Under the pieces are notes generated by a model. The model was not told the origin of the DNA, did no database searches, and saw nothing but the letters and a program-made list of their open reading frames with translations. The translations under genes and the position numbers were made by a program. From Ruminococcus sp. (GTDB lineage: Bacteria > Bacillota > Clostridia > Oscillospirales > Ruminococcaceae): a DNA stretch of 64,000 nt. Each line of letters starts with the position of its first letter. Positions within the stretch are counted from its first letter, which is position 1. This document shows positions 28,261 to 52,886 of the stretch, piece by piece. The stretch spans positions 41,739 through 105,738 of the forward strand of contig JAFXCR010000051.1 of the NCBI GenBank assembly GCA_017516465.1, given 5' to 3'.

Positions 28261-29226
28261 TCAGAAACCGAACATTGCAAGTCCGATTGTATCGAGCTTC
28301 CAGTCGTCGCCTTCTACCTTATACATAACAAATTTCTGATCAAAACCTTCAGCATTTATGGTAACATATTTTGCTTCCTCAAAAGGAATTATAATATCAA
28401 CATCAAGATTCTCAATATCATCAAGCTGAGAAAGCTTTGTAGCAGGCTCGAGAAGAAGCATAGCTTTCTCAGTGTCTATGTTGCCTGACTGCATATCGTT
28501 ATAGTTAATACCATTATCAGCCATACAGATAAACAGCTCTGAATATACAGAATAAAGCTTTTCAAGCTTCTCTACTGTCTCAGCGTCACAGTCAGAAACG
28601 CTTTCGATTTCAAGCTGATCAAGATCAATATCTTCCATTGAAGTATATGAGCCGTCAATTGATTCAACCATAAAGTCATAAGCATCAATTTTAATAAGAG
28701 CGTCTATAAGCTTATCCGGGAATGTCAGATTCATGAGACCTTCTGTATCCTTATCAATTGCAAGCTCGCAGAATTGAGTTAATACATCCTTATATATATC
28801 AGTGTTCTCATTGGAAACTTTATCATCCTTTTTCTTGTCATCATCCTCGTCTTTGTCGGATTTATTATCATTGTCATCATCATCAATGATCACATCATCA
28901 TCTTTGTCAGATTTCTTGTCATCATCTTCGTCATCCTTATCGGATTTCTTGTCGTCATCTTCGTCATCCTTATCGGATTTCTTGTCATCATCTTCGTCAT
29001 CCTTATCGGATTTCTTGTCGTCATCTTCGTCATCCTTATCAGATTTCTTGTCATCATCTTCGTCATCTTTATCAGACTTTTTGTCATCATCATCCTTGTC
29101 ATCATCAGATTCAGAAGATGATTTCTTTCCAGACTTCTTGCTGTCACTGTCGTTGTTATCTCCACAAGCTGTAAATGTACAGAAGCAAGTCGTTATCGCC
29201 ATAAGAAATGCAAGTAATTTTTTCAT
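28261..29226 (-). CDS. Lipoprotein with Asp/Lys/Ser repeat tether, 321 residues
   Basis: Paralog of the 232-residue lipoprotein. The signal peptide has lipobox FTAC (Cys about 21). A low-complexity tether (about 25-130) follows, made of about six copies of an 11-residue unit DDDKKSDKDDE, then a domain (about 140-321) ending MYKVEGDDWKLDTIGLAMF as in the paralog. The highly charged spacer would project the domain from the membrane and could bind cations. Start at MKKLLAFLMA chosen for GGAGGAAAT; an upstream start would begin before the promoter -10. Confidence 0.72.
   Translation of the reverse strand: MKKLLAFLMAITTCFCTFTACGDNNDSDSKKSGKKSSSESDDDKDDDDKKSDKDDEDDDKKSDKDDEDDDKKSDKDDEDDDKKSDKDDEDDDKKSDKDDEDDDKKSDKDDDVIIDDDDNDNKSDKDEDDDKKKDDKVSNENTDIYKDVLTQFCELAIDKDTEGLMNLTFPDKLIDALIKIDAYDFMVESIDGSYTSMEDIDLDQLEIESVSDCDAETVEKLEKLYSVYSELFICMADNGINYNDMQSGNIDTEKAMLLLEPATKLSQLDDIENLDVDIIIPFEEAKYVTINAEGFDQKFVMYKVEGDDWKLDTIGLAMFGF
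28908..29105. repeat. 33-bp tandem repeat encoding the D/K/S tether
   Basis: About six near-identical 33-bp units (GTCATCATCTTCGTCATCCT plus TATCGGATTTCTT on the plus strand) encode DDDKKSDKDDE. Copies differ only at a few silent positions, which points to recent expansion or homogenisation. Confidence 0.85.
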
Positions 29227-29290
29227 TTTATTTCCTCCAATAAAAATATCATGCGGATCAAATATTATTATAATTAATCCGTACATAAAT

Positions 29291-29319
29291 ATTATAACAC
29301 TACATTCATTCAATGTCAA
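29291..29319 (-). promoter_or_regulatory. Promoter of the lipoprotein pair
   Basis: TTGACA (29314-29319), 17-bp spacer, TATAAT (29291-29296). Confidence 0.9.
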
Positions 29320-29396
29320 CACAACGACAAGAAATTTCTTTTTAAATAAAAAAACACCGGATATAAAACATATATCCGGTATCAATTCAATATGCG

Positions 29397-30845
29397 TCAG
29401 AAACGGAAATCTCTCTTTCCGTTTTTTATATCCTTAAGATTCTGAATTGCTCTTTCAAGAACCTTCGGGTTTGTCACCTTATTAATCTCGCGTGAAATAA
29501 GTTCTTCTCCTGCTTTCTTTGTTTCTTGAGAAGCGTAGTCTTCAAGGAATTCCTGAAGTGTCATGAGTGCGTTAGGATGGCAGCAATTCTGAATCTGTCC
29601 CACCTTACAAAGTGCCATGAATCTGTCACCTGTTCTTCCTTCACGATAGCAGGCAGTACAGAATGACGGAATGTGTCCTGTATCAATAAGCCATCTTACA
29701 ACCTCGTCAAGTGTACGCTGGTCTGATACATCAAACTGTTCTGTGTCATGAGGACGCTCCTCAGAAGAATATCCGGCATATCCACCCACTGATGTTCTTG
29801 AACCGCCTGAAATCTGAGAAACACCAAGTCCGAGAACTCTGTCACGGCACTCCTCGTTCTCACGAGTTGAAATAATCATTCCTGTATAAGGAACAGCAAT
29901 TCTGATACAAGCAATGATCTTTGCAAAAATATCATCGTCGATACTATTGTCAAATACACCAGGATCAATATCAGCAGCTCTCTTTATACGAGGAACACTG
30001 ATCGTATGCGGACCTACACCGTGAACAGCTTCAAGATGCTCTGCGTGCATAAGAAGACCTGCGAACTCATATTTATACTTATCAAGTCCGAAAAGAACGC
30101 CAAGTCCTACATCGTCAATGCCGCCTTCCATAGCCCTGTCCATAGCTTCTGTATGATATGCGTAATTGTGCTTTGGTCCAGCCGGATGAAGCTTCTCGTA
30201 GCTCTCCTTGTGGTAAGTCTCCTGAAACAGGATATAAGTTCCGATTCCTGCTTCATGAAGCTTTTTATAGTTTTCAACCGTTGTTGCGGCAATATTGACA
30301 TTCACACGTCTGATTTCGCCGTTTTTGTGCTTGATAGAATAAATGGTTTTTATACATTCAAGAATATATTCAATCGGGTTATTTACCGGATCCTCACCAG
30401 ACTCGATTGCAAGACGCTTATGTCCCATGTCCTGAAGTGCAATTACCTCATTGCGAACTTCTTCCTGAGTAAGCTTTTTTCTCGGAATTTCCTTGTTCTG
30501 GATATGATATGGACAGTAAACACACTGATTTACGCAGTAATTTGAGAGATAAAGCGGAGCAAACATTACTATTCTGTTTCCGTAGAACGCTTCTTTGATT
30601 TCACTCGCAAGAGAATACATTTTCTCGTTCAGTTCCGGAATATCACATGCAAGAAGAACGCTTGCTTCACGGTGAGTTAGTCCAGAACATTCAACTCCTT
30701 TTCCTGTCTTTTTAGGAGCAGCCTTATCAAGAATTTCCTCGATAAGCTCACGATTATTTTTGTTTGCTTCAGCATAGGCAAGAGTTTCAAGAATTTCCTC
30801 GTTATTGATAAATTCCTCTGCCTTCAATGACTTTACATCATACAT
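29397..30845 (-). CDS. hydG: [FeFe]-hydrogenase H-cluster maturase HydG
   Basis: A 482-residue radical-SAM tyrosine lyase that makes the CO and CN ligands of the hydrogenase H-cluster. The CX3CX2C motif is CVNQCVYC (Cys104, 108, 111). The second, C-terminal cluster motif CTAC plus a Cys 22 residues on (in IQNCC) separates HydG from its relative ThiH, which lacks it. Length is normal. hydE, hydF and the hydrogenase are not in the window. It is co-transcribed after the TM1266-type regulator, 10 bp upstream. Confidence 0.95.
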   Translation of the reverse strand: MYDVKSLKAEEFINNEEILETLAYAEANKNNRELIEEILDKAAPKKTGKGVECSGLTHREASVLLACDIPELNEKMYSLASEIKEAFYGNRIVMFAPLYLSNYCVNQCVYCPYHIQNKEIPRKKLTQEEVRNEVIALQDMGHKRLAIESGEDPVNNPIEYILECIKTIYSIKHKNGEIRRVNVNIAATTVENYKKLHEAGIGTYILFQETYHKESYEKLHPAGPKHNYAYHTEAMDRAMEGGIDDVGLGVLFGLDKYKYEFAGLLMHAEHLEAVHGVGPHTISVPRIKRAADIDPGVFDNSIDDDIFAKIIACIRIAVPYTGMIISTRENEECRDRVLGLGVSQISGGSRTSVGGYAGYSSEERPHDTEQFDVSDQRTLDEVVRWLIDTGHIPSFCTACYREGRTGDRFMALCKVGQIQNCCHPNALMTLQEFLEDYASQETKKAGEELISREINKVTNPKVLERAIQNLKDIKNGKRDFRF

Positions 30846-30855
30846 AATTCATACC

Positions 30856-31104
30856 TCATTTCTTTGAAATTGCGGCTTTTACAGAAACACCGTTTATTTG
30901 TCCGAGCCTTCCCGTAAGACTGCTTATTACATCTGGTTTAGCGTCAACTGCAACTGAAATCAGTGAAATCCCTTTGTCTTTGTAGGGAATTCCCATTCTG
31001 CCGATTACTATACCACTATAATCATGCAGAACTTTATTCACCTCGGAAGAAGCCTCTATCTCGTCAACTACAACAGCAACAACAGCAATTCTTTTTTCTT
31101 CCAT
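30856..31104 (-). CDS. TM1266-type iron-only hydrogenase system regulator
   Basis: An 82-residue ACT-like domain protein (EEKRIAVVAVVVDEIEAS, GIVIGRMGIPYKDKGISLISVAVDA). This small family is typically encoded beside [FeFe]-hydrogenase maturation genes, as here beside hydG; its ligand and mode of action are not established. ACT-like folds usually bind small molecules. Start at MEEKRIAV is chosen for TTTGGAGGTTCA; an earlier in-frame start would overlap the leader terminator. Confidence 0.85.
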   Translation of the reverse strand: MEEKRIAVVAVVVDEIEASSEVNKVLHDYSGIVIGRMGIPYKDKGISLISVAVDAKPDVISSLTGRLGQINGVSVKAAISKK

Positions 31105-31117
31105 TGAACCTCCAAAT

Positions 31118-31141
31118 AAAAAATCCGCCATTTCGGGCGGA
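31118..31141 (-). terminator. Leader terminator of the hydG operon
   Basis: TCCGCC...GGCGGA (5-nt loop region CGAAA/T) followed by TTTTTT, 14 bp before the regulator ATG. Its 5' arm GCCCGAAA (31131-31138) is perfectly complementary to TTTCGGGC at 31200-31207, so an alternative antiterminator pairing exists. Confidence 0.85.
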
Positions 31142-31173
31142 CAGAGTACACTTATAGACTAAAATGTTCTGTG

Positions 31174-31251
31174 ATCCGATAACAGAATACAATCCTGCTG
31201 CCCGAAAACAAATATATTATTTACCATCCGGCAACAGAATAAATCCTGCTG
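31174..31251 (-). promoter_or_regulatory. Tandem repeat leader element of the hydG operon
   Basis: Two copies of one element lie in the untranslated leader: 31226-31251 and 31174-31200, 52 bp apart and matching at 24 of 27 aligned positions. Minus-strand reading: CAGCAGGATT(G)TATTCTGTT, two variable bases, CGGAT. Each copy can fold as a hairpin (CAGCAG/CTGTTG in the first, 5 bp in the second) and is also an imperfect dyad in DNA. Followed by a terminator with an alternative pairing. I do not recognise it as a described riboswitch; it may be a tandem RNA sensor or a pair of operator sites. Confidence 0.7.
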
Positions 31252-31264
31252 TCTGATTAAAATA

Positions 31265-31293
31265 ATTATATTACATAAAATCACATTTGTCAA
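31265..31293 (-). promoter_or_regulatory. Promoter of the hydG operon
   Basis: TTGACA (31288-31293), 17-bp spacer, TATAAT (31265-31270). The -35 box directly follows the T tract of the upstream ABC-operon terminator. Confidence 0.9.
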
Positions 31294-31330
31294 CAAAAAA
31301 GTACCTTCGGAAATATCCAAAGGTACTTTA
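31294..31330 (-). terminator. Terminator of the sugar ABC operon
   Basis: AAAGTACCTT and AAGGTACTTT form a 10-bp stem with the loop TGGATATTTCCG, followed by TTTT G and the next promoter. Confidence 0.9.
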
Positions 31331-31339
31331 AATCATAAA

Positions 31340-32236
31340 TTATTCCTTTACACCACCGAGAGCAACGCCGCCAACGATCCACTTAGAAAGGAGAACGTAA
31401 GCAATTACGATCGGAATGATAGAAAGTGCGATACAAGTATAAACAATACCGAAGTCGGTAAACTTATCAGAAGCCTGAACAGCCTGTACCATCATCGGAA
31501 GTGTCTGTTTTTGCTTGTCACCGTCCATAAGGATCATAGAAGGTGTATAGAAGTTATTCCAGTTAGCAACGAAAGCGAAAATTGCCTGAACAGCAACAGC
31601 CGGCTTCATCATAGGAATAGCAATTGTAAGGAATGTTCTGAACTCGCCTGAGCCGTCGATACGAGCAGCTTCAACAATATCCAGAGGGAATGATGATTTC
31701 AGATACGACCTCATAAAGAATATTACCGCCGGAGCAGCAATAGCCGGAAGAATGAGTGGAACGTATGTATTATGTAACTTTAATCTGATCATGAATTCAA
31801 CGAAACCAGCTGAAGTTACCTGTGTAGGAACCATCATGATAAGAAGAATGAATGTATAAGAAATTTCCTTGAGTTTGAAATCATATACATGAATTCCGTA
31901 AGATGTAAGCGCTGAGAAGAATACAGTAAGAATTGTAGCACTACAAGTAATGATAGCACTGTTTCTGTAACCAATCAGGGGCTTGAAAGCATCCTTAACA
32001 TAATCAATAGTGATCATGTTCTTAAAGTTTTTAGTAAAATAATTACTCGGAATAAGTGTAAATCCACTGGAAATTTCATTATTACTTCTTGTAGCGTTAA
32101 TAAGAAGTGCATAAATAGGGAGCAGACAGATAATAGTAAGGATAATAAACCAGATAAAAAGAATTGTAGACTTTAATCTGATCTTGAACATATAGTTATC
32201 TTTACCCTGTCCGTAAACAGACTTCATATCACTCAT
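31340..32236 (-). CDS. Carbohydrate ABC transporter permease (MalG type)
   Basis: A 298-residue inner-membrane permease with six helices and the EAA loop EAARIDGSGEFRTFLTIAIP (about 190-210), which docks the ATPase. It belongs to the CUT1 sugar importers. It overlaps the upstream permease gene by 4 bp (ATGA). Last gene of the operon; no ATPase gene is present, so a shared MsmK/UgpC-type ATPase encoded elsewhere is likely. Confidence 0.92.
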   Translation of the reverse strand: MSDMKSVYGQGKDNYMFKIRLKSTILFIWFIILTIICLLPIYALLINATRSNNEISSGFTLIPSNYFTKNFKNMITIDYVKDAFKPLIGYRNSAIITCSATILTVFFSALTSYGIHVYDFKLKEISYTFILLIMMVPTQVTSAGFVEFMIRLKLHNTYVPLILPAIAAPAVIFFMRSYLKSSFPLDIVEAARIDGSGEFRTFLTIAIPMMKPAVAVQAIFAFVANWNNFYTPSMILMDGDKQKQTLPMMVQAVQASDKFTDFGIVYTCIALSIIPIVIAYVLLSKWIVGGVALGGVKE

Positions 32237-35533: not shown

Positions 35534-38500
35534 TTATTCTCCGACATTTATTCCTGACGAAATCTTCGTATAAAGCACCAGTATCAATGTTGCATCTGAG
35601 CCTGTAATTATTCCGTCCCTGTCGTAGTCTGCTACTTCAAGTGATTTTCCTGCAAGATTCCCTTCGTTTCCGGAAGATATCAGCGTGTAATGTCTCAGAA
35701 CAAGCGTAGCGTCAGATCCTGTAATTATTCCGTCACCATCTACATCGCCCATAAGAATTTCCTGAGCCGTAGGATCAATATAAACGCTCTTTGAGGCAAA
35801 AGAACTATCGGTTGCACTGTATCTTACAGCAAGCTTGTTTCCATCCGTACATTCAGCACTGATATCCCATTCAGCATTGATATACCTTATTACAGTATCG
35901 GTGTCAGTTGCCTGCATTCGCTTCTTCATCAATTCCTCATACTGCTTGATATCGCTATATCCCCATTTTGAGGCAAGCTTCTCAATTGAAGATAATTCCA
36001 CTGCCTTTGGAGATGCGATTTCATAACTGAAATCACTGATCGTACATTCGTCACCACTTATTGTATATTCTGGTATTTTTGTTGGAGCTTCTGGTGCTGA
36101 TGGAATTTCAAAAACTGCCGGACTGCTCTTGAATTTACCGTTTCCTGCTGCCACCCTGAGCGTAACAGTCTCTCCGGGAATTATAGCAAACGCCTTATTC
36201 ATTACCATGCCGGAATTTATCCATGTTCCGTCAAGCAAACGACCTTCAGCACTTATATAATCTCCGTTTGACGGCTTTTCTTTTACTGAATACTCCAAAA
36301 GCTCTGCCGTTTCATTCGGAATAAATCCAAGCGTCTCAAAGTAATAATTCAGCTCCAGATCCGGAATCTGATTTCTTTCCGGAAGTACATATTCTACATT
36401 TTCAAGCCCCACCGAAGCGTATACTGTCTGTCCGGCAAGATGTCCGATATACGAATTATCGGGAATCTCGGTGCCGTCAGCAGCATATACATAATCTGCA
36501 CCTGTATATTTCAGAGTTTCATTTGTCAGATTAATTTCAACAGGTAATTTTTTTACTACAAGCTTTACAGTATTATCAAGTGCGTTTTCCTTCGACAGCT
36601 CAAAAATAATCTCGGTTTCACCGTAGTTTACCTCTATATTATCTGTCTGTTCATATTTTTCTATCTTTTCACCATTCATAGTAATGTCGGCGTCTGTCAG
36701 AGGATATAAACACAGATTTGTATCTGTACCGGTAAGTTCAATTATATATTCGCTTTTACTTATTCTCTTTGCACTTTTTGTATCTGTTCTGTATCCTTCT
36801 TCTGTCATATAGCACAGATCGAAAAACTGTGCAGTTGCCGGCTCATATGTACGCTCCGTAAAATTGATTTTATCTGTTGTTGCAGATATTGTCATTTTCT
36901 CCGTAACTGAAATTGATCCGGTATACGGCTGATATTCACTTCCGTTGATAGATACCAATATCTCCCCGCCGCTGGGAGTACTGAGGGTTACAGCTTCATC
37001 AGACGAAACTTCTCCGGAAATATGGGAAAACTCCACAGATGCCGCATTGTTTCCGAATGCCTTCATTGATATGTTTCCGGATATTATTTTCAGATCGCTG
37101 ACCTCAAAAATTTTTGTATAGGAATCAAAAATCTGCTGTGCTTCGGCAAGAAGCTTTGTATCATTTTCCTCAAGACCGTCAAAGAGCTCTGCCTTAAGAC
37201 CTTCTAACAGAAATTCTTTTTCCTCATCGGTATATTCGTATATCTCACAGCCCGAATCGCCCCAATTGACTCCATCAGGACTGTAAAGACTTTCGTTCTT
37301 TCCTGTATTCACTTCAATTCTTTCCTTTGAAGTAAAAGTACTAAGATCTGTTATAGTACCATTATTCTTATTCTCAGCATACAAACTTGTCTCAACAGGG
37401 ATCACATACGGCGTATCGGGACAGAAGAGCTTTACAACTACGCTGAAATCACCCGATTCAACCCAGACGCTTTCATCAAAATCAATCGTCTCATATCCTG
37501 TAAAGCTGCTCACTCCCGACGCAACAGTTTTTTCTGTTCCAGAAGTCGGATCAGAAGGATCCTTCAGACCGCTGTATACCGTCACCTCATACTCAGTTCC
37601 TACCGTTGTAAAATATGTGGAAATCGCCCCTATCTCCTCACCGGAAGCAGATGTAAATATATTCGCCATGTACGAAGGAAGCGTCGGGGACGCATCAATA
37701 TGAGCTGACATTGTATTTGTATACACAAATGTATCATGCTGATGAATATTGTCATAATTTTCCTTATCTCCAAGATCGAAAATTGCGAAATCTACAAGCG
37801 ACTTATCGTAATACGAAATCCATAAGTAGCCCTCCTCTCCAAAATGGGATCCCCAACTGTTCTTAACAAGCCATCCGCCGTTGCCCGCCGGCGAATTTCT
37901 GAACTTACTTGCCGGAAAATTATCATCCCAGCCGCAGATAGTCACGGCATGATCAGCAAATCGCGGCGGTCTGCTTGAATTTGAAGTATTATAGCTGTAA
38001 TTGTAAGTCACCGACTGCTCACTGTAAAACGATACATCAACACCCTGACCGTTATAAACGAACTCCTTTATGGTGTTGTTTACATCATCAAAATTCGATC
38101 TGTCGCTGTTGTAATTAAACATATACACGTTTTCGAGATGATAGTCACTGTCTGCCTTAAGTTTTTCGAGCTTTTCAGTTACATCAAATACTGAATGATC
38201 GCCATATGGCATTTTTTCCTCATAAACCGGACCTATCCACTGTGCCCACAAATTTGATACAGCATAGATATTGCCGCCCTTATTGAGAATATCACTGATT
38301 TTTTCAGATTTGGGATCCACCTGATCTTCACCATAATATGTGAAATATGCAGTGTGCAATTCGGAAAGGTCAACCGTCGGATTACTGCTCAGGATTCCGC
38401 TTTCCGCACTCGACGCAGAGGAATGTGCCCAACAGGTTCCGTACGCTCCCTGATTTTTTACGCTCGTCATACCGGACGCTTCACGCAGATCAAACGATGA

Positions 38501-38767
38501 CGGCATGGCATGGCTTCCTCTATATACAGATATTACGTCTGAATCCACACGGGGAGCCATGGGTTCCACAGAAATCCCGCTTCCATCATGTATATGCACA
38601 AATTCCGGCAGTGCCATTGATAATGATGGTGTATTCATGCTTCTAACCAATGACTCGTCCCAGTCAGATGTCTTATCAACGGTGCCTGAAGCCGCTGTAA
38701 GACATAGCAATGATGTTACTGATACTGCCGATGTCACGGAAATCATTTTTTTTAAAATGGTATTCAT
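35534..38767 (-). CDS. Secreted C1A papain-family protease with lectin-like region and dockerin
   Basis: A 1077-residue exported protease. A signal peptide (about 1-26) precedes the papain domain (about 88-325): SVKNQGAYGTCWAHSSA has the nucleophile Cys112, FADHAVTICGWDD has His273, and WLVKNSWGSHFGEEGY has Asn303. A beta-rich lectin-like domain follows (about 340-460, SGEEIGAISTYFTTVG). Then come several domains, including a cadherin-like beta-sandwich stretch and an Ig-like region. The C terminus (about 1000-1077) is a dockerin-type pair: GDVDGDGIITGSDATLVL and ADYDRDGIITGSDATLIL. It is probably attached to a cohesin-bearing scaffold. Monocistronic, with its own promoter. Confidence 0.9.
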   Translation of the reverse strand: MNTILKKMISVTSAVSVTSLLCLTAASGTVDKTSDWDESLVRSMNTPSLSMALPEFVHIHDGSGISVEPMAPRVDSDVISVYRGSHAMPSSFDLREASGMTSVKNQGAYGTCWAHSSASSAESGILSSNPTVDLSELHTAYFTYYGEDQVDPKSEKISDILNKGGNIYAVSNLWAQWIGPVYEEKMPYGDHSVFDVTEKLEKLKADSDYHLENVYMFNYNSDRSNFDDVNNTIKEFVYNGQGVDVSFYSEQSVTYNYSYNTSNSSRPPRFADHAVTICGWDDNFPASKFRNSPAGNGGWLVKNSWGSHFGEEGYLWISYYDKSLVDFAIFDLGDKENYDNIHQHDTFVYTNTMSAHIDASPTLPSYMANIFTSASGEEIGAISTYFTTVGTEYEVTVYSGLKDPSDPTSGTEKTVASGVSSFTGYETIDFDESVWVESGDFSVVVKLFCPDTPYVIPVETSLYAENKNNGTITDLSTFTSKERIEVNTGKNESLYSPDGVNWGDSGCEIYEYTDEEKEFLLEGLKAELFDGLEENDTKLLAEAQQIFDSYTKIFEVSDLKIISGNISMKAFGNNAASVEFSHISGEVSSDEAVTLSTPSGGEILVSINGSEYQPYTGSISVTEKMTISATTDKINFTERTYEPATAQFFDLCYMTEEGYRTDTKSAKRISKSEYIIELTGTDTNLCLYPLTDADITMNGEKIEKYEQTDNIEVNYGETEIIFELSKENALDNTVKLVVKKLPVEINLTNETLKYTGADYVYAADGTEIPDNSYIGHLAGQTVYASVGLENVEYVLPERNQIPDLELNYYFETLGFIPNETAELLEYSVKEKPSNGDYISAEGRLLDGTWINSGMVMNKAFAIIPGETVTLRVAAGNGKFKSSPAVFEIPSAPEAPTKIPEYTISGDECTISDFSYEIASPKAVELSSIEKLASKWGYSDIKQYEELMKKRMQATDTDTVIRYINAEWDISAECTDGNKLAVRYSATDSSFASKSVYIDPTAQEILMGDVDGDGIITGSDATLVLRHYTLISSGNEGNLAGKSLEVADYDRDGIITGSDATLILVLYTKISSGINVGE

Positions 38768-50022: not shown

Positions 50023-52653
50023 TCAGCCTATAAATTCCTTAACGATAGACTCAAATGACATAAGAGCCTCATCGACCATATATGTTTTTCCGACACCAGC
50101 CATTGCACTGTCAGGACGTCCGCCGCCCTTACCGCCTGTGATGGCAGCAATTCTCTGAACGATCTTTCCGGCGTGAGCACCCTTTTCAACAGCTCCGGCA
50201 TTGCATACGCAGTAGAATGTACCCTTATCGCCGTCAACTCCGGCAAAAAGAGCTATAACTGGTTCTGCCTTATCCTTTGCACCATCGCCGAGCTTTCTGA
50301 GTGCGTCAGGAGTAACACCGGTCATCATAGCAGAAACTACCTTTACTCCGTTGATATCCTCTGCACCGTCGAATATTGCAGCTACCTTTGCATTGGCAAT
50401 CTGCTGTGTAAGGCTTTCTATCTTCTTGTCTTTTTCCTTCATTTCGGTTGCTGCAGAAGCACACTTTTCAGGAAGCTCCGCAGGATTTGAAACCTTGAGT
50501 GCCTTTGCAGCACGAAGAACCGTGTTCTTGTATTCACCAAGAAGTGCAAGTACTCCGGAACCTGTAACAGCTTCAATTCGGCGTACACCGGCAGCTACCG
50601 AGCTTTCGGAAACAATCTTGAAAAGACCGATCTGTGATGTATTTGATACATGAGTACCTCCGCAGAATTCAATTGAATTATTTGCAGTAACAACTCTTAC
50701 AGTATCACCGTATTTTTCACCGAAAAGTGCCATAGCTCCGAGCTTTCTTGCATCATCAATAGACATTTCGTTCATTGTAACCTCAATTGCACTGAGGATA
50801 TCAGCATTTACAAGTTCCTCGACCTTTGCGATTTCTTCCTCAGTCATAGCACTGAAATGATTAAAATCAAAACGACAAGCCTTTTCATTTACAAGCTGTC
50901 CTGCCTGATGAACGTGATCACCAAGTACCTGACGGAGTGCATACTGAAGAAGATGGGCAGTTGTATGGTTTCTCATAATGGAGAGACGGCGTTCCTTTTC
51001 AACCTGTGCAAGAACCTTATCACCCTTGGAGATGCTTCCCTGTTCAATAGTAGCCATATGGAGGAAGTGTCCCTCAGACTTGATAGTATCATCAACAGCA
51101 GCGATGCTTCCGCCATTGATAATTACACCTGTATCACCTGTCTGTCCACCCGATTCTGCGTAGAAAGGAGTAATGTCAAGAACTATAACAACATTGTCAC
51201 CTTCAACAGCATTTTCGATCTCAATACCATTCTTGTATATTGCAAGAACCTCAGCGTCCTTTACCTCGAATGCTGTATATCCTGTGAATACTGTATCAGG
51301 AGCGTCAATTTTTATGCTGTTGTCTGCCCATGATGATCCAGCCTTTGCAAGGTGATCCGCCTTTGCAAGATTACGCTGCTCAAGAGCAAGTTCCTTGAAG
51401 CGGTCAACATCGACATCAAGTCCCTTTTCCTCGCAGATCTCAATTGTAAGATCGATCGGGAATCCGTATGTGTCAGAAAGTCTGAATGCGTCATCGCCGG
51501 AAAGAGTATTCTTCTTTTCAGCAGCAAGCTTGTCCATATACTGGTTGAGAAGCTCTGTACCCTTGTCAATTGTCTTGGCAAAAGCCTCCTCCTCAACACC
51601 GATGATCTTTTTGATGTAGTCTCTCTTTTCTGCAAGTTCAGGATATGCACCGGCATTTTCGTCGATTACAGTATCAGCAACTTCGCAGAGAAAAGGCTTT
51701 GTGATGCCTAAAAGTCTGCCGTGACGTGCAGCTCGTCTGAGAAGACGTCTGAGAACATAGCCCCTGCCTTCGTTGGAGGGCATGATTCCGTCACCGACCA
51801 TGAATGTTGTACTTCTGATATGGTCTGTGATAACACGGAGAGAAACGTCAGTTTTAGCGTCATTCTTATATTCTACGCCAGCAAATCCGCAGATATGCTT
51901 CATGATTTTCTGAACAGTATCTACCTCGAAGATATTGTCAACGCCCTGCATTACGCAGGCAAGACGTTCAAGTCCCATACCGGTATCAATGTTCTTGCTT
52001 TCCATTTCAGCGTAATTTCCGTTGCCGTCGCTGTCAAACTGGCTGAATACGAGATTCCATATCTCGATAACACGATCGCAGTCGCTTGCCTGTTCAAAAT
52101 TCTCGAAAGGACCGTAAGCTTCTCCACGGTCAAAATGAATCTCTGAGCAGGGACCGCAAGGACCTGAGCCGTGCTCCCAGAAGTTATCCTTCTTGCCGAG
52201 ACGGATAATTCTGTCCTTTGGAATACCGATGTTCTCCATCCAGATCTTTTCAGCTTCGTCATCGCTTTCAAAGATGGTAATCCAGAGTCTTTCAGCCGGA
52301 ATTTCAAGTGTCTTTGTAAGGAATTCCCATGCCCACGCAATAGCCTCAGGCTTGAAATAATCGCCGAATGAGAAGTTGCCAAGCATTTCAAAATAAGTAC
52401 CGTGACGAGCCGTTTTACCTACACTTTCAATATCGGGTGTTCTGATACATTTCTGGCAGGTTGTTACTCTCTTGTTAGGCGGAACAGCCTGTCCGAGGAA
52501 ATATTTTTTCAGAGGTGCCATACCTGAATTGATGAGCAGAAGGCTCTTATCGCCCTGAGGAACAAGTGAAGCACTTGCCATTCTCGTATGGTTCTTGCTC
52601 TCGAAAAATGAGAGATATTTTTCACGAAGATCATTTAATCCGGTCCACTGCAT
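50023..52653 (-). CDS. alaS: Alanyl-tRNA synthetase
   Basis: An 876-residue class II synthetase of full length. Motif 1 region SFLNINSGMAPLKKYF-type (here LLINSGMAPLKKYFLG), RHGTYFEMLGNFSFGDYFK and a class II motif 3 (TGMGLERLA) are in the catalytic domain. The editing domain holds the zinc ligands HTTAHLL and CGGTHVSNT. A C-Ala domain with GGGRPDSAMAGV ends the protein. It is controlled by a T-box leader immediately upstream. Confidence 0.97.
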   Translation of the reverse strand: MQWTGLNDLREKYLSFFESKNHTRMASASLVPQGDKSLLLINSGMAPLKKYFLGQAVPPNKRVTTCQKCIRTPDIESVGKTARHGTYFEMLGNFSFGDYFKPEAIAWAWEFLTKTLEIPAERLWITIFESDDEAEKIWMENIGIPKDRIIRLGKKDNFWEHGSGPCGPCSEIHFDRGEAYGPFENFEQASDCDRVIEIWNLVFSQFDSDGNGNYAEMESKNIDTGMGLERLACVMQGVDNIFEVDTVQKIMKHICGFAGVEYKNDAKTDVSLRVITDHIRSTTFMVGDGIMPSNEGRGYVLRRLLRRAARHGRLLGITKPFLCEVADTVIDENAGAYPELAEKRDYIKKIIGVEEEAFAKTIDKGTELLNQYMDKLAAEKKNTLSGDDAFRLSDTYGFPIDLTIEICEEKGLDVDVDRFKELALEQRNLAKADHLAKAGSSWADNSIKIDAPDTVFTGYTAFEVKDAEVLAIYKNGIEIENAVEGDNVVIVLDITPFYAESGGQTGDTGVIINGGSIAAVDDTIKSEGHFLHMATIEQGSISKGDKVLAQVEKERRLSIMRNHTTAHLLQYALRQVLGDHVHQAGQLVNEKACRFDFNHFSAMTEEEIAKVEELVNADILSAIEVTMNEMSIDDARKLGAMALFGEKYGDTVRVVTANNSIEFCGGTHVSNTSQIGLFKIVSESSVAAGVRRIEAVTGSGVLALLGEYKNTVLRAAKALKVSNPAELPEKCASAATEMKEKDKKIESLTQQIANAKVAAIFDGAEDINGVKVVSAMMTGVTPDALRKLGDGAKDKAEPVIALFAGVDGDKGTFYCVCNAGAVEKGAHAGKIVQRIAAITGGKGGGRPDSAMAGVGKTYMVDEALMSFESIVKEFIG

Positions 52654-52677: not shown

Positions 52678-52886
52678 AAAAAAGCCCCGCCGCTATGGGA
52701 CGAAGGCTCTCGTGGTACCACCCAAGTTCAAAGGAAGAATCCTTTCTCTTTTTCCTTAACGCAGAAAAAACGCTGCGGTTTTCCACAGAAGCTCAGGGGC
52801 AGCACCCATCCTTAGTGTAAAAGCTCGCACCAGCCGCTTTCTCTCTGAAACACCTTGCAGACAGTCAATCCCGTCTATGCTATACT
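52678..52886 (-). promoter_or_regulatory. T-box leader of alaS
   Basis: The minus strand has the T-box signature GGGTGGTACCACG (52709-52731 region), followed by a terminator GAGCCTTCGTCCC...GGCGGGGCTTTTTT ending at 52678. Upstream are the stem I parts, including AGAGAAAGCGGCTGGTGCGAGC and a GGGTGCTGCCCC segment that may hold the alanine specifier codon (GCT or GCC). The leader opens the gene when uncharged tRNA-Ala binds. Confidence 0.92.

Follow-up and report, generated by a model that had tools for sequence, protein, structure and literature searches.

A tandem-hairpin leader RNA, very probably a transcription attenuator, upstream of TM1266 and hydG in Ruminococcus

Described leaders and how this locus compares

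Autogenous leaders bound by a protein include the ribosomal-protein leaders and those of PyrR and TRAP. The guanidine-II (mini-ykkC) riboswitch carries ACGR loops in its two hairpins, and ANTAR target RNAs likewise have two hairpins, with A1/G4 hexaloops that are recognized by an ANTAR regulator and lie upstream of a terminator. The BglG/LicT RAT element is a single hairpin overlapping the terminator. Expression of hydG is also known to be regulated at the DNA level: in Caldicellulosiruptor bescii it is controlled by Rex, a DNA-binding redox sensor and not an RNA leader (PMC6391272).

We analyzed a leader in a 64,000-nucleotide stretch of Ruminococcus DNA (hereafter the window), where it precedes a gene of the TM1266 family and hydG. 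It resembles the autogenous leaders in having a conserved RNA and a terminator before the putative regulator's own operon, and possibly in the use of several unrelated folds by one protein; it differs in that its partner is only a candidate, in heading a hydrogenase-maturation operon and in having no Rfam match. Like guanidine-II it places two similar tandem hairpins (P1 and P2) before the regulated gene, but the P1 loop (GATTTATT in 43 of the 50 leaders of alignment A1, described below) has a near-invariant GAUUUAUU end and the P2 loop is variable, in contrast to the ACGR loops, and even permissive thresholds gave no match in Rfam. ANTAR targets, too, have tandem hairpins ahead of a terminator; the loops do not fit the A1/G4 hexaloop, and no ANTAR domain was matched in TM1266 or HydG. 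As in the RAT element, a hairpin with internal mismatches would compete with a terminator, but here there are two hairpins, and TM1266 matches no BglG-type family. The sole Rfam gathering match in the window is a T-box leader (RF00230, 93.6 bits; 52693-52886, minus strand) and not the leader studied here. Immediately after it comes a frame (50023-52653) whose sequence resembles alanyl-tRNA synthetase, an ordinary arrangement for a T-box.

Searching Rfam 15 gave no gathering match to the leader, only sub-threshold matches at E≤5 within window positions 30850-31400 and at E≤1 near the leaders of 10 homologous loci. Of the large list of candidate RNAs reportedly published as NAR gkx699, the comparison covered what Rfam includes. 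No such leader is reported in the literature consulted, which included the hydrogenase-related passages of PMC11109978, PMC8632094 and PMC2965389. We file the leader as a new RNA family of a known kind, the transcription attenuator. An initial annotation of this DNA had recognized no ANTAR hexaloop, T-box or other familiar leader here, and both Rfam and the loop comparison agree.

Layout, fold and terminator of the leader

Promoter, P1, P2, terminator, TM1266 and hydG follow one another in that order on the minus strand (Table 1). The initial annotation had already placed a consensus promoter, two repeat elements and a terminator here, all of them present and with the right coordinates; its gap of 14 bp between terminator and gene becomes 13 nt when counted from the end of the U-run to the TM1266 start at 31104. 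This ATG, behind a GGAGG, is the likely start codon, and a longer open reading frame, to 31131, would start within the terminator. The TM1266 protein scored 108.2 bits against TIGR03959 (cutoff, 60.8), also matched PF21699 and has a PDB homologue, 2nzc. It consists of one small domain, residues 14 to 88 of a 91-residue frame, and searches of family profiles and the PDB matched no nucleic-acid-binding domain in it.

Table 1. Features of the leader and operon, in window coordinates
Feature	Position	Strand	Basis and remarks
-35 element TTGACA	31288..31293	-	Sequence; sigma-70 type; similar promoters visible before many homologous leaders
-10 element TATAAT	31265..31270	-	Sequence; 17 bp from the -35 element
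Hairpin P1	31227..31256	-	Covariation; terminal segment GAUUUAUU; purine mismatch
Hairpin P2, with G·G mismatch	31174..31208	-	Covariation; mismatch in 50/50 leaders of A1
Putative antiterminator 5' strand CGGAUCACAGAAC (P2 3' end and next nt)	31166..31178	-	Pairing compared with permuted arms
Putative antiterminator 3' strand AAGUGUACUCUGUCCG, overlapping the terminator 5' arm	31138..31153	-	Coordinates from sequence; permutation test
Intrinsic terminator hairpin and U-run	about 31118..31142	-	Automatic terminator scan
TM1266-family gene (putative iron-only hydrogenase system regulator)	30856..31104	-	TIGR03959, PF21699, PDB 2nzc
hydG, [FeFe] hydrogenase H-cluster radical SAM maturase	29397..30845	-	TIGR03955, 912.5 bits

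Two other minus-strand frames of the window were noted. One (28261-29385) is lipoprotein-like, with a highly repetitive acidic KSDKDDEDDDK array; the other (35534-38767) reads like a papain-like cysteine protease ending in dockerin-like repeats (DVDGDGIITGSDATL), as would be expected of a cellulosome-type Ruminococcus.

For comparison we searched 125 genomes of the genus for TM1266, found it in 103 and retrieved the DNA upstream of each; a few loci at contig edges yielded hardly any such DNA or none. A motif search found candidate leaders in 66 of the upstream regions; four were too short, and 62 were kept. Alignment A1 holds 50 of these, 12 with a divergent P2 or poor trimming having been dropped before the count.

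Over 141 nt, the leader of the window folds with a predicted energy of -49.2 kcal/mol (z = -5.45; none of 200 shuffles as good). Its minimum-energy fold pairs P1 with P2 in one long hairpin, an option that the near-identity of the two copies in the window allows. That fold had no covariation support (74.7% of cells paired, against 75.0% after shuffling), unlike the two local hairpins. The two-hairpin structure pairs 92.0% of the 1,400 cells of A1, with two-sided change at 17 of 28 pairs and a covariation of 0.428 against 0.222 for shuffled alignments, none of 500 being as good. When the divergent leaders left out of A1 were included, 100 leaders in all, 91.4% of cells were paired, two-sided change was seen at 20 of 25 pairs, and covariation was 0.494 against 0.235 shuffled, in an alignment that was itself fitted to the covariance model. 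Compensatory change, proposed at the outset as a check on the hairpins, is therefore strong in both P1 and P2.

Within the stems, P1 has a purine mismatch that is G·G in 44 of the 50 leaders of A1 and, by our own reading, A·G in the window. The pair just outside it changes on both sides, from C-G to U-A, in 8 of the 50. G·U pairs exceed A·C by 64 to 22 when five mostly G·U columns are left out, and by 220 to 26 over all columns. Because the stems are compensatory and G·U is in excess over A·C, we take the leader to be an RNA of the transcribed strand.

The two elements agree at 26 of 30 aligned positions with one gap, so that the near-identity first noticed (then given as 24 of 27) stands with a revised figure. 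Among 55 leaders aligned and judged by eye, only the closest relatives of the window share this near-identity. In these relatives the P2 loop also resembles the P1 loop; in the other leaders a Y-G-R/Y-G-R mismatch is common to both hairpins, but the loop is not. A near-identical repeat is thus not the conserved signature, since it is confined to the closest relatives; as judged from the aligned sequences, the signature that extends more widely consists of paired hairpins carrying a G·G mismatch. That the two loops are alike we take as a hint that the same partner recognizes both hairpins.

An automatic scan found a terminator-like hairpin in 93 of 97 leaders, these being the 100 leaders minus three with an aberrant or low-scoring P2. 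With an intrinsic terminator thus lying between promoter and first gene, the leader is very probably a cis-acting RNA transcription attenuator of the TM1266-hydG operon.

Each hairpin strand was then compared with its own terminator arm and with permuted arms in 46 representative leaders (less than 80% alike), with six settings and 5,000 permutations. The 3' strand of P2 gave z scores of -1.7 to -3.0, with 7 to 226 of the 5,000 permutations as good. The best results, 13 and 7 permutations, came from the strand plus 6 or 12 following nucleotides against the arm plus 14 nt upstream; the other four settings gave 171 to 226, only the 3 to 5% level. No significance was reached in these 46 leaders by the 5' strand of P2 in any of the six settings (845 to 1,046 permutations as good; z = -0.8 to -0.95) or by the P1 strands (1,755 or more).

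Since the 3' strand of P2 pairs better with the terminator arm than with permuted arms, this strand is probably the one that would form an antiterminator with the terminator 5' arm, and folded P2 would be the "off" state. The predicted duplex in the window has an energy of -12.6 kcal/mol. The initial annotation had instead singled out an 8-nt complementarity between TTTCGGGC (31200-31207) and GCCCGAAA (31131-31138). It exists in the window, but it involves the P2 5' strand and so falls within the nonsignificant comparison; of what was expected to be conserved in homologous leaders, the two hairpins are, the near-identical repeat is not, and this pairing finds no support as the alternative helix.

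Occurrence of the leader and of a second RNA class

A covariance model (R1) matched 99 of the 125 Ruminococcus genomes at E≤0.05 and 97 at E<0.001, with one strong copy per genome. The two weak matches are those in G016, where inspection of the place showed an unrelated hairpin, and in G071. Two strains of Ruminococcus flavefaciens, ATCC 19208 and YAD2003, are among the carriers. This distribution, together with covariation in both hairpins and the lack of an Rfam match, bears out the original suggestion of an undescribed tandem-hairpin RNA leader.

The leader was present at E<0.001 in 97 of the 103 genomes with TM1266 and in none of the 22 without it. It lay upstream of TM1266 on the same strand in 96 of the 97, within 400 nt in 69 and at 868 to 1,034 nt in 27; the remaining one, in G037, is on a contig other than that of TM1266. 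Like an autogenous leader, then, it co-occurs with the regulator gene and stands before it, and TM1266 is, as the initial annotation had supposed, a plausible partner. Six of the 103 have no match at E<0.001, among them a divergent 23-bit match (G066) and a locus at a contig edge (G038). At two loci (L158 and L159) the sequence suggests an alpha/beta-hydrolase (lipase)-like gene between leader and TM1266, and the same insertion probably accounts for all 27 long gaps.

No leader was found in the seven genomes of the genus that have HydG and lack TM1266, two of which (G028 and G109) have the locus at a contig edge. The other five (L340 to L344) have an intact hydG with a promoter close to it, and no terminator-bearing leader was seen upstream; in L341 there is a hairpin upstream of hydG, but without a U-run.

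R1 matched 16 of 396 genomes of the family at E≤0.01; six of these belong to Ruminococcus and ten do not. Two further genera, g85 and g89, with two genomes each, clearly have the leader in front of TM1266. Three of these loci are long enough to show the next gene, which is hydG in each, and the g89 loci also have hydF (both genes named from sequence). A weaker leader precedes TM1266, hydE and hydG at one locus of g78. Four of the five remaining matches outside the genus were unrelated hairpins on inspection. All told, weak matches in eight genomes (G000, G016, G024, G037, G289, G373, G405, and G486) were inspected and look like unrelated hairpins; the match in G201 (L167) precedes TM1266 and genes that read as hydE and hydG; those in G030, G033, G061, G071 and G451, the last being the fifth outside the genus, were left out of inspection. 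R1 found nothing at E<1 in 28 TM1266 loci of other genera and, in another 40 upstream regions, nothing below E = 0.1.

In other genera of the order, the DNA before TM1266 holds a second RNA (class 2, the window's leader being class 1), of the form CCU-GA-CAYC-GA-stem-GA-GRUG-AA-AGG and also with a terminator; examples are L217, L221, L225, L228, L230 and L233. The two classes bear no resemblance to each other. Alignment A3, 32 cores chosen by eye from 68 upstream regions, had a covariation of 0.450 against 0.209 shuffled (0 of 500 shuffles as good), with two of five measures not exceptional. No Rfam match was found for class 2 in the 15 loci scanned. The class 2 model gave no match at E≤0.5 in 100 class 1 and related loci, and the two classes never occurred together in the loci examined. 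Three variant leaders (L234, L291, and L296) have two tandem CUGAC...GAAGG-like units before TM1266 and are perhaps a doubled class 2 element.

The class 2 model (R2) matched 59 of 295 genomes of the order at E≤0.1. Tightening the limit to E<0.005, a value chosen after the table was seen, left 48 genomes with 50 matches between them; 42 of these matches stand no more than 400 bp before TM1266. All 48 carriers have TM1266, compared with 141 of the 295 overall. Among 11 further genomes with a match at E values of 0.005 to 0.1, six have TM1266, about the background rate, and five (G338, G544, G606, G644, and G750) had no TM1266 match. Restricted to genomes of the order with HydG, class 2 occurs in 40 of 112 with TM1266 and in none of six without it, a difference that is not significant (P = 0.09).

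Eight of the 50 copies stand elsewhere than just before TM1266. Two of them are followed by hydE-hydG, a third by hydG, and a fourth by a small gene, hydG and hydF; a fifth (G770) heads an operon of ABC-permease, HydE and NifH-like genes. Of the other three, one lies where a contig ends, one where a contig begins, and the last is not assignable. At these loci hydG and the G770 HydE were identified by search, and the other hydE genes and hydF were named from sequence.

Four loci without a HydG match at E≤1e-90 (L329, L330, L336, and L345) have operons under a class 2 RNA. These encode TM1266 (in L336 only as a fused copy), a FecCD/BtuC-type permease, and NifH-like and weakly NifE-like proteins, and the ABC ATPase frame has a C-terminal TM1266-like stretch. 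HydE scored 513 bits in L336, and L330 encodes a protein that reads like HydE; none was seen in L329 or L345.

TM1266 as candidate partner and competing readings

The mechanism we propose is a switch in the 3' strand of P2. Were P2 open, this strand would pair with the terminator 5' arm, an antiterminator would form and the operon would be on; were P1 and P2 held folded, the terminator would form and the operon would be off. The holder would be the TM1266 protein; in this way it would keep down both its own synthesis and that of HydG (autogenous control), and a ligand on TM1266 might report the need for H-cluster assembly. This reading as a whole, an attenuator with a P2 3'-strand switch held by TM1266 in autogenous control, seems to us evenly balanced between right and wrong.

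That the TM1266 protein binds the leader, a suggestion drawn from co-occurrence and gene position, has at best an even chance. It is our best guess because leader and TM1266 are absent together, because the gene stands in the operon that the leader heads, and because a second, unrelated RNA also accompanies TM1266. In addition, a pair of simple hairpins with fixed loops seems to us better suited to recognition by a protein than to forming a pocket for a metabolite. Against TM1266, one protein would have to bind two unlike folds, and it has no matched nucleic-acid-binding domain. Moreover, 93 of the 141 genomes of the order with TM1266 have no class 2 match at E<0.005, and 6 of 103 within the genus have no class 1 match at E<0.001. 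The co-occurrence is itself partly trivial, since leader and TM1266 sit in one operon, and the Ruminococcus genomes without TM1266 may be one lineage. A broader proposal, which we advance tentatively, is that TM1266 may be an RNA-binding attenuation protein sensing the state of H-cluster or HydE-type assembly, with a regulon (TM1266, hydE, hydG, hydF, and the HydE/nitrogenase-like operon) reached through at least two unrelated leader folds, one of them the tandem hairpin of the window.

The strongest rival is a small-molecule or metal riboswitch, in which P1 and P2 would bind a ligand of H-cluster assembly, possibly Fe(II), tyrosine, SAM, or a product of HydG or HydE, and switch the same terminator, TM1266 being merely a regulated gene. 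Nucleotides are conserved in the loop and at the mismatches, the terminator platform is present, and tandem-hairpin riboswitches exist, guanidine-II among them (PMC7544219). Class 2 copies also head hydE-hydG, hydG and a nitrogenase-like operon at sites apart from the small TM1266 gene, as would be expected of a ligand sensor. Yet the leader goes missing together with TM1266 in the genus, the folds examined show no multihelix junction or pseudoknot, and the single strong class 1 copy per genome almost always lies upstream of TM1266. We regard a riboswitch as a real but lesser possibility.

It is improbable that a factor other than TM1266, such as an unrelated RNA-binding protein or an sRNA, binds the hairpins and acts on the same terminator: two fixed-loop hairpins would suit any protein target, and the six TM1266-positive genomes without a class 1 match would fit such a factor, but the leader follows TM1266 in the genus, as class 2 does in the order at E<0.005.

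Least probable by far is the initial annotation's other suggestion, two DNA operators, separated by about five helical turns, that a DNA-binding regulator would occupy; although each element is an imperfect palindrome lying shortly after the promoter, their centers are 48 to 52 nt apart in 80 of 100 leaders, and DNA-level control of hydG exists in the form of Rex in C. bescii (PMC6391272), the stems change in a compensatory way while the loops stay fixed, G·U exceeds A·C on the transcribed strand, the spacing ranges from 29 to 79 nt, and TM1266 has no matched DNA-binding domain.

NCBIfam and Pfam give TM1266 no name beyond "putative regulator". A compact RNA backed by covariation that heads the operon, with a candidate protein partner encoded within it, makes the question of how anaerobes adjust their supply of H-cluster maturases to demand testable in vitro, and the leader may offer an RNA-level means of influencing hydrogen production by rumen bacteria, R. 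flavefaciens among them.
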